Assembly: GCA_021234155.1 (NCBI GenBank) | Contig: JAJEKV010000011.1 | Span: 20,786,677-20,850,676 of the forward strand | DNA: 64,000 bases | Direction of reading: 5' to 3' | DNA from: Isoetes taiwanensis | Lineage: Eukaryota; Streptophyta; Lycopodiopsida; Isoetales; Isoetaceae | Part shown: positions 55,229-56,460 of the stretch, piece after piece | How the letters are laid out: every line of letters starts with the position of its first letter | Numbering within the stretch: position 1 is the stretch's first letter | Translations under genes and position numbers: made by a program | Notes under the pieces: generated by a model | The model's input: only the letters and a program-made list of their open reading frames with translations | What the model was told of the DNA's origin: nothing | The model's database searches: none

Positions 55229-56460
55229 ATGGCCCGAACCAAACAGACTGTCCGAATAGTTGTGCCAGACGACTTCGTCAGCGCCCAAGAGTTGGCTGCC
55301 CGACAGAAGGCGAGACAAGCTCAGGAGCGAGCCAGGCGGGAACAAGCCCCAGATGCCAATCCTGACACCCAAGAAGAGGAGCAGGAGCATCATAGAGAGG
55401 AGGAGCGCGCCCAACACACAGAGGAGCAGGAGAACCCTGGGAGCCAGGGAGATAGAGGCCAAGATGAGGAGGACGAGAGCGAGGAGATGACGGAAGAAAT
55501 GCTGCAGAAGAAAGTAGAGATGGAGAAGAGGGGGAGGGAGAAGAGAGAGCTCAAGAGGAAGAGGGAGGAAGAGAAGCTAGAATTCAAGAGGAGAAAGGAA
55601 GAGCGCAAGAAGCAGAAGGAGGAGCGCAAGAAGCAGAAGGAGTAGCGCAGGAAGAGGAGAGAGGAGCGCAAGAAGAGGAGAGAGGACAAGGGAAAAGACC
55701 CGGAGCCGCCGAAGGAACCCCGGCGGAAGACGAAAACAACGCCGGCTAAGGGAGTTGTAATAGCAGAGCAGCAGGCCGATAGGCCACCCTAATCCTCTGA
55801 CACTAAGTCAGATGAGGAGATAAGGGTCCCCTGCCCAACAGAAGGCTCGGGACCTTCGAATGCAGGTGCCACAGAGGAGGAGCCGGCAGCAGGAGCACCC
55901 CCTTATCCTAAATGGCCCTCCCCAAAGAAGCCGGCAGCGGACCTAAGAAGCCCAAGCCAGCAAGAGAGTCATACGTACTCAAGCATGAGGAAGAGTACAG
56001 GAAGAAATTGAAGGAGTACAACCAGTACATGAAAATGTACGAGGAGTACTCAAAGTACTACGAGCAGCATAAAGTCACGTACGTGGAGGGAGGTAGGCCA
56101 TTGAAGAAGAACACTCTCAAGCCGCCCCCAGAAAGACCAGCACCCCCAAAGAAGCCAGTAAAGAGAAAGGCGGACTCATACTTCACGAGAGCTGCTCGGG
56201 AGATCCGCCACTTCCAGAGGAGCTACGGGTTGCTGATTCTACGAGCCGCCTTCGCGAGACTCACCAGCGAAATTTTGCAGGAGTTCGACAAGTCAAAGAG
56301 AGTAACAGATGATATGTTACTCGCACTACAGGAGGCAGCATAACAAAGGATAGTTCAGCATTTTGAAGACTCCTTAGCATGTGCCCTCCATGCTAAAAGA
56401 GTGACTTGTATGCCCAAAGACATGAAGCTAGCTAGATATATTAAAAAGGAAGACTGCTAG
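55229..56460 (+). pseudogene. Histone H3-like fusion protein, damaged
   Basis: About 410 codons. The N-terminus is MARTKQTVR, identical to histone H3 over the first seven residues including Lys4. A long charged region follows (residues about 15-300): acidic stretches, then ERKKQKEERKKQKE-type basic repeats predicted as coiled coil, then proline/lysine-rich parts (ERPAPPKKPVKRKAD). From about residue 320 comes an H3 histone fold: AAREIRHFQRSYGLLI (alphaN-alpha1), FARLTSEILQEF, LLALQEAA (alpha2), FEDSLACALHAKRV, TCMPKDMKLARYIKK (alpha3). Loop 1 has the length of canonical H3, without the extra residue of plant CENH3; the conserved cysteine of alpha3 start is kept. Damage: stops at 55643, 55791 and 56341 and one frameshift near 55930. 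All are single changes, so the frame was intact recently. A standard H3 is 136 residues, so this is a fusion. Its role is unknown. Confidence 0.85.

Follow-up and report, generated by a model that had tools for sequence, protein, structure and literature searches.

A histone H3-like gene carried by a Ty3/gypsy chromovirus lineage of Isoetes taiwanensis

The stretch of DNA analysed here, termed the window, is 64,000 nucleotides long and comes from Isoetes taiwanensis (contig JAJEKV010000011.1 of assembly GCA_021234155.1, positions 20,786,677 to 20,850,676 of the forward strand). At positions 55229–56460 it contains a broken gene whose product starts like histone H3, continues as a long charged tail and ends in an H3 fold. 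Copies elsewhere in the genome show that this H3-like gene is an integral gene of a Ty3/gypsy chromovirus lineage, situated between the primer-binding site (PBS) and gag, and that its tail, linker and fold are all under purifying selection. The parts of the gene are listed below, with the ratio of nonsynonymous to synonymous substitution (dN/dS) for each.

55229..56460, + strand: H3-like gene with three stops (55643, 55790, 56341) and a single frame change; ends at 56458-56460
55229..55642, + strand: N-terminal part, MARTKQTVR followed by an E/R/K/Q-rich tail with short tandem repeats; dN/dS 0.24
55942..56180, + strand: linker ESYVLKHEEEYRKKLKEYNQYMKMYEEYSKYYEQHK..., without a known domain, strongly conserved; dN/dS 0.15
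56181..56457, + strand: histone H3 fold, alphaN to alpha3, by Pfam, PDB and alignment; dN/dS 0.14

The match to H3

The match of the window gene to H3 is real. The two pieces that flank the stop at 56341 separately match PF00125 (Histone) at 2.7e-8 and 1e-7 (34.5 and 32.7 bits; cut-off 26.4), and their best matches to H3 chains in the PDB are at 7.3e-7 and 7.3e-9. Histone is the sole Pfam match above cut-off in the linker piece. The window fold aligns without gaps from alphaN to alpha3 with Arabidopsis H3.3, with 44 of 83 residues identical; the alignment score is 198, and the maximum among 2000 shuffles is 61. A profile built from seven genomic copies finds H3.3 in the PDB at 9.1e-24, and the best 60 of its 174 PDB matches are all H3 and none CENP-A. 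Thus the gapless alignment in the original prediction holds, and neither intact copies devoid of a histone fold nor a score at the level of shuffled sequence was found. Also borne out are a loop 1 of H3 length and the presence of three stops and one frameshift, the frame change being a single one between about 55912 and 55945. The window copy of the element is dead.

Genomic copies and structure of the element

A search of the 1.66-Gb assembly (1110 contigs) finds the H3-like gene at at least 40 loci, in 47 matching stretches that are 74–100% identical; 40 of 1315 candidates were scored, so this is not a total count. A further 21 copies, ten with the best scores and eleven with lower ones, were examined with 10 kb of surrounding sequence; together with the window they make up the 22 copies discussed here. 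The order of the element is LTR (long terminal repeat), tRNA-Met primer site, H3-like gene, ORF2, gag, pol with a chromodomain, and LTR. The parts present in the window are as follows.

54757..64000, + strand: Ty3/gypsy chromovirus remnant, one insertion; homology of the 21 other copies begins at 54757 or later
54944..55010, + strand: imperfect palindrome with 18-base arms and a predicted hairpin, upstream of the H3-like gene
55119..55127, + strand: probable TATA box TATAAATAG, 110 bases ahead of the H3-like ATG
56602..57080, + strand: 204-bp tandem repeat with the same palindrome in each unit (56602-56672, 56806-56876, 57010-57080)
57252..57260, + strand: TATAAATAG ahead of ORF2
57371..58887, + strand: ORF2, a broken gene of about 500 residues, from frames read; family not recognised
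59234..60235, + strand: gag with capsid region; Retrotrans_gag 2.5e-4 and Ty3_capsid 0.0029, both below Pfam cut-offs; a zinc knuckle follows in the next frame
60168..61103, + strand: zinc knuckle and protease; RVP_2 1.4e-11, zf-CCHC_3 0.0069 (under cut-off)
61093..61629, + strand: part of reverse transcriptase (RT), FFDDILVYS, by eye; 80-84% identity to the RT of a second family
61557..62904, + strand: RNase H and N-terminal integrase, shortened; RT_RNaseH 2.4e-30, Integrase_H2C2 5.4e-20
62903..64000, + strand: 3′ LTR, starting about 420 bp within the LTR

The window copy has no 5′ LTR, PBS or stretch after the PBS. Its pol is cut at 62904 by a deletion that reaches into the LTR (the junction at 62903 was set by comparison with two fuller copies), and the 3′ LTR runs off the window. 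An LTR block homologous to window positions 62903-64000 and 5793-7337 (- strand) lies upstream of the H3 unit in 18 of the 21 other copies, mostly at a distance of 250–280 bp (shorter in L013, L014 and L025); within the 10 kb around each copy, no such block precedes the H3 unit in L009, L015 and L027. The association with a Ty3/gypsy element that had been proposed is borne out by these copies, and the gene is to be placed inside the element rather than next to it, as had been thought. The primer site TGGTATCAGAGC is directly behind the LTR in 15 of the 21 copies, and L015 has the motif elsewhere. Downstream of the H3 gene, 17 of 21 copies have ORF2 or some portion of it, and in 12 of 21 the stretch covered includes gag.

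Three copies were traced downstream (L010, L012 and L016). In two of them, L010 and L016, a second LTR of about 1.5 kb, in direct orientation to the first, follows pol; L012 has only a 146-base LTR fragment in the opposite orientation. The LTR pair is 93.7% identical in L010, and 94.6 and 96.6% identical over two stretches in L016. The two complete copies span 12,009 and 13,185 bp, have LTRs of 1535/1656 and 1537/1537 bp, and are flanked by 5-bp target duplications (ACAAT and CTGTG). The LTR of L016 starts with TGTGACGT and ends with ACGTCACA, and a purine-rich tract is found ahead of the 3′ copy. Two LTRs, a PBS, a polypurine tract and a target duplication, as expected of an LTR retrotransposon, therefore occur together in two of the three traced copies. 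Kimura two-parameter distances between the LTRs are 0.033 and 0.051. Substitution rates per site and year are about 1.3e-8 in rice and 2e-9 in conifers; by these rates the complete copies are about 1–2 or 8–13 million years old, respectively.

The order gag, protease, RT, RNase H and integrase is present, with RT identified by eye and gag and the integrase core under Pfam cut-offs. In L010 the integrase, whose core match of 5.2e-4 is below cut-off, runs past the window break to an SH3 domain (3e-15) and a chromodomain (PF00385, 9.6e-9, above cut-off). A chromodomain at the integrase C-terminus, which is the mark of a chromovirus, is thus seen in one copy and is missing from the shortened window copy. 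By eye, this chromodomain has neither the first nor the last aromatic residue of the H3K9me cage, according to the rule given for plant chromoviruses (PMC6317226).

Sequences around the H3-like gene are shared as well. TATAAATA is upstream of its start in 20 of the 22 copies, at -104 to -113 in 18 of them, and the leaders of the H3-like gene and ORF2 are alike (AAGGCGATT at 55207 and 57305). Palindromes of the type CTCACAGAGTGCGC...GCGCACTGTGTGAG lie on both sides of the H3-like gene (window 54784-57080), and their arms are found in all 21 other copies. The hairpin predicted for 54944-55013 has an energy of -33.2 kcal/mol, and a decayed right arm is also present at 54784-54801. These palindromes could perhaps serve as promoter elements, RNA hairpins or terminators; neither viral_contigs nor genome_contigs contains an exact match to the palindrome DNA pattern. 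The TATA-like box and the same palindromes at both the H3 gene and ORF2 gave rise to the idea that these two genes form a separate multi-gene element beside the gypsy element, as did a scan of window positions 53500-59300 with twelve primer-site patterns, which gave nothing convincing (one match with two mismatches). The genomic copies show a single element.

ORF2 has no Pfam match, and two pieces of it match PDB sequences no better than at 0.16 and 0.31. The predicted fold of an ORF2 piece is poor (mean predicted local distance difference test score, pLDDT, 41.7). ORF2 is under selection, and the second family likewise has a distant relative of it after its H3 gene.

Selection on the H3-like gene

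For dN/dS, copies were projected on the codons of the window, codons with gaps or stops were dropped, and Nei-Gojobori counts were summed for all pairs that exceed 10 synonymous sites. The fold segment starts one base early, and its coding frame is therefore offset 1. With 22 copies and 231 pairs for each part, dN/dS is 0.24 in the tail, 0.15 in the linker and 0.14 in the fold (dS 0.57, dN 0.08). Codon-bootstrap ranges are 0.18–0.32, 0.10–0.23 and 0.10–0.19, respectively; these ignore the dependence between pairs, and L024 and L026 are near-copies. The values resemble those of gag (0.20; 13 copies, 66 pairs) and protease (0.19; 6 copies), and the two parts of ORF2 show 0.29 (18 copies) and 0.26 (15 copies). 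Wrong-frame controls give 1.04–1.87 for all coding segments and 1.17–1.87 for the three H3 parts, and non-coding segments give 0.72–1.19. It should be pointed out that decay after insertion pulls dN/dS towards 1, so that selection in live lineages is, if anything, stronger.

The fold is complete and free of stops in 7 of the 22 copies. Five copies are open from the aligned start over 366–388 residues, and the remaining 17 hit a stop within 167. The original prediction that the gene was recently coding is upheld by purifying selection in the frame it named, as is the unusual size proposed for this H3 variant: the open copies far exceed the roughly 136 residues of H3, and in length the protein does not conform to H3. 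Preservation of the gene by selection suggests that its product is a histone in use by the element.

The N-terminal tail

The gene had been described as an H3 fold on a long charged protein. The fold stands, but the notion that it was glued to an unrelated protein does not, since the N-terminus in the window, MARTKQTVR, is itself an H3 start. By automatic reading, residues 1–8 are exactly ARTKQTAR in 11 of the 22 copies. Among the other eleven, seven (window included) have one difference, one has two and one has three; the N-termini of L015 and L023 were read out of frame, and a separate reading of L023 gives ARTKQTAR. At position 9, where H3 has K, 21 of 22 copies carry I or M and the separate reading of L023 shows I; K does not occur. 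Both K9 and S10 are replaced in the 21 of 22 copies read in frame at these positions. The tail and linker together have about 280–320 residues, which are mostly charged. With the H3 start retained, the gene is better viewed as an H3 with a tail extended to this length than as a fusion.

A second H3-carrying family

A search of the same genome with rice CENH3 reveals a second family, termed family B. Of 8071 candidates, 150 were scored, which gives no total count; all 150 score 2.8e-33 or lower, many of them lie within open frames 400–500 residues long, and six loci were examined. These six encode similar proteins, which in two loci start with MANTKSAPD or MAITKSAPD. Five of the six are L035 or share DNA-level flanks with it, and L038 is not listed among these. 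One family B fold is identical to Arabidopsis H3.3 at 80 of 92 positions, and two folds score 3.7e-40 and 3e-41 with Pfam. At L033-L039 (e.g. C919:22672367-22672846), the near-canonical H3 fold stands behind an unrecognised domain of roughly 300 residues.

A distant ORF2 is found downstream in five of the six loci (30% over 59 residues, 1e-5 to 8e-5). In one extended locus, gag is 58 and 53%, protease 52% and RT 80–84% identical to the window family. Classed by its gene order, family B is a second Ty3/gypsy family with an H3 gene. Its fold has a dN/dS of 0.04 over the six loci, a biased sample, as the loci were chosen by protein similarity and dN is therefore biased down. The same gene order with very different H3 sequences would imply either a single ancient capture followed by rapid change in the family of the window, or two captures; a single clade of both families is not rejected (p = 0.09 in the approximately unbiased test, p-AU).

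Affinity to H3 and CENH3

The affinity of the fold was examined with seven of the 22 rows, selected for full coverage of the fold (one has X at a stop), and with 6 H3 and 12 angiosperm CENH3 rows as reference. At sites that separate H3 from CENH3, the seven rows match CENH3 only at 7, H3 only at 3, both at 4 and neither at 13. P63, A65 and T85, fixed in the 12 CENH3 rows and missing from the 6 H3 rows, are present in the seven, with A65 replaced by V in one; the window copy has L63. All seven prefer the CENH3 profile over that of H3, by 1.2 to 6.5 bits, and the window row slightly prefers H3 (87.3 vs 86.8). The loop-1 insertion of CENH3 and W84 are both lacking in the fold rows examined. At least six of the seven rows retain each of R83, C110, H113, K115, R116 and D123, residues that presumably take part in contacts with DNA or between the two H3 copies (H3-H3′).

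In the latest tree, which omits P0004 (described below), two partial H3 rows and two of the six family B rows, the seven rows group with CENH3 at 85/89, which is under the mark of the tool, and a grouping with H3 and family B is not rejected (p-AU 0.361). Earlier trees place them with CENH3 at 79/30 and, for the window row, 71/29, both again below the mark; the H3 grouping is not rejected in either (p-AU 0.158 and 0.087, respectively). In the 79/30 tree the CENH3 row P0097 retained part of its tail. A derivation of the gene from CENH3 is thus one candidate origin.

Possible function and its alternatives

H3K9 methylation is the mark by which plants silence transposons. The H3-like protein would pair with host H4 and would join nucleosomes as an H3 variant, and the long tail could then work for the element on chromatin. 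It might keep the copies of the element in a state that resists H3K9 methylation, or it might hold the machinery of the element on chosen chromatin; the former is somewhat likelier. Judged from sequence, the reading we favour, by a modest margin over disbelief, is that of a resident, selected H3 gene of a chromovirus lineage whose product serves the element as a nucleosome histone. The loss of K9 together with the retained K4 end suggests an escape from H3K9 methylation. A bolder proposal, which we regard as speculative, is that the lineage builds its own chromatin: with the K4 end kept and K9 gone, its nucleosomes could be marked as active and could not be H3K9-methylated, and the substrate of silencing would be replaced.

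Several findings weigh against a role in nucleosomes. P takes the place of R63, and HRYRPG, at the point where DNA enters, is lost, so that the nucleosomes may be unstable, or H4 may be bound only outside nucleosomes. An AlphaFold model of the H3-like protein made without an alignment is poor, with a mean pLDDT of 59.6, and lacks the short-long-short helices typical of histones. The second family has no ARTKQT at its start; mimicry of the H3 tail is therefore not common to the lineage, and what is shared is a fold behind a long foreign N-terminal part. In addition, the copy statistics cover 22 of the 40 loci, window included, and purifying selection, while evidence of use, is silent on which use.

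Rather doubtful, though the next to be considered, is that the histone directs insertion: the H3-like protein would sit in particular chromatin, for example that of centromeres, and its tail would recruit integrase, with the chromodomain as part of the same system. The CENH3 leanings fit this (the profile preference of all seven full-fold rows, P63, A65 and T85, the seven CENH3-only sites against three, and the grouping at 85/89), and a chromodomain without two cage aromatics could have a binding partner other than H3K9me. They are offset by the missing loop-1 insertion and W84, the slight H3 leaning of the window row, the purely H3 character of the best 60 of 174 PDB matches, and trees in which the CENH3 grouping stays below the mark while the H3 grouping is never rejected. 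Somewhat less probable again is a packaging factor, condensing nucleic acid or associated with the capsid, that coats RNA or cDNA in the particle and uses the fold without host H4. The highly charged tail would suit such a factor, as would the position of the gene ahead of gag in the company of ORF2, a second, unrecognised gene. H3 folds presumably require a partner, however, and the retained residues of the H3-H3′ interface and DNA contacts, along with a family B fold identical to Arabidopsis H3.3 at 80 of 92 positions, point to use with host histones.

That the gene is a captured, functionless H3 passenger in decay is very improbable. Elements are known to capture host genes, three stops and a frame change break the gene in the window, and 17 of the 22 copies are not open over their full length; yet dN/dS of 0.14–0.24 across 22 copies, like that of gag and protease and with frame controls, rejects a pseudogene, and the 0.04 of the family B fold, biased sample though it is, agrees. 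A host H3 variant flanked by elements by chance is hardly credible, even though the gene has its own TATA-like box ahead of the start: such an origin is ruled out by at least 40 loci, by the same LTR upstream in 18 of 21 copies and by two copies with both LTRs and target duplications.

Few host proteins are as conserved as histones, which are also the substrate of transposon silencing. With a retroelement lineage that carries and keeps its own H3, the contest over chromatin marks could be tested directly. Such a lineage would also represent a mobile source of new histone variants, possibly a route to centromere or germline variants, and would widen the known coding range of LTR elements.

Other features of the window

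At 5793-7337 (- strand) there is an LTR of the same family, about 85% similar to 62918-64000 and with end motifs that have at most one mismatch. It is possibly a solo LTR, as self-comparison shows no adjoining internal part. An open frame at 8930-10006 (+ strand) contains Myb-type domains (3.7e-17) and is probably a real host gene. Degenerate tandem arrays are found at 869-2244 and 32999-33766 (GAATCT-type and TAAGGAATATTCCTT-type), and a perfect 91-bp tandem duplication is at 53523-53707.

Comparison with known systems

A 143-residue piece of the H3-like reading has no relative in viral_contigs, and the protein search with it was also empty. Residues 240-411 of the read-through protein, compared with 5.8 billion proteins, find four H3 proteins with other long N-terminal parts; these match about half of the region, the fold only. 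P0004, from a 60 kb ENA contig, is a 349-residue protein with an internal MARTKQTTKKS start, a long tail and a divergent H3 fold that has AAFARL in common with the element. It may be a parallel case; its grouping is neither shown nor rejected (p-AU 0.44, in the tree with the partial P0097 tail). P0002, of 549 residues, combines an H3 core with a PF02902 domain, which we take to be an Ulp1-type protease.

No LTR element with a histone gene was recognised among open-licence PMC titles and the starts of abstracts, which does not prove absence from print; the main texts of PMC7264820 and PMC6338049 contain no word beginning with histone. The nearest printed cases are a fungal hAT element with an H3-like gene, H3L, and orchid gypsy elements with AlkB.

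H3L is carried by a hAT DNA transposon of Pyrenophora tritici-repentis, and in the parts of the report seen, a transposon amplifies an H3-like gene, as here; H3L likewise has insertions in the tail and a fold that is fully neither H3 nor CENH3 (PMC3538342). It differs in that the carrier is a fungal DNA transposon with terminal inverted repeats and almost identical copies (PMC3538342), whereas the Isoetes gene belongs to an LTR retrotransposon lineage with diverged copies, measured purifying selection and two families.

Gypsy_Pa_2799 of Phalaenopsis is, from the portions consulted, a Ty3/gypsy element that took up and kept a host-type gene as an extra open reading frame, in this case an AlkB-type 2-oxoglutarate-dependent dioxygenase gene and not a histone (PMC9289625). 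The same work screened 121 angiosperm genomes and reports 15 unusual domains, and the section on these names no histone domain (PMC9289625). Other plant Ty3/gypsy elements have extra reading frames, some with named domains; those in the passages available are a mobile domain (pfam10536), Transposase_28 and Athila ORF-1, not histones.

The resemblance to plant CENH3 lies in the MARTK start, the long divergent tail and P63, A65 and T85; the element gene differs from it by the lack of the loop-1 insertion and W84, by a much longer tail and by its many mobile copies. With plant chromoviruses, as far as the excerpts of their description go, the element shares the order of gag, protease, RT, RNase H, integrase and chromodomain, the tRNA-Met primer site and the 5-bp target duplication, but it has two extra genes ahead of gag, one of which is an H3 (PMC6317226).
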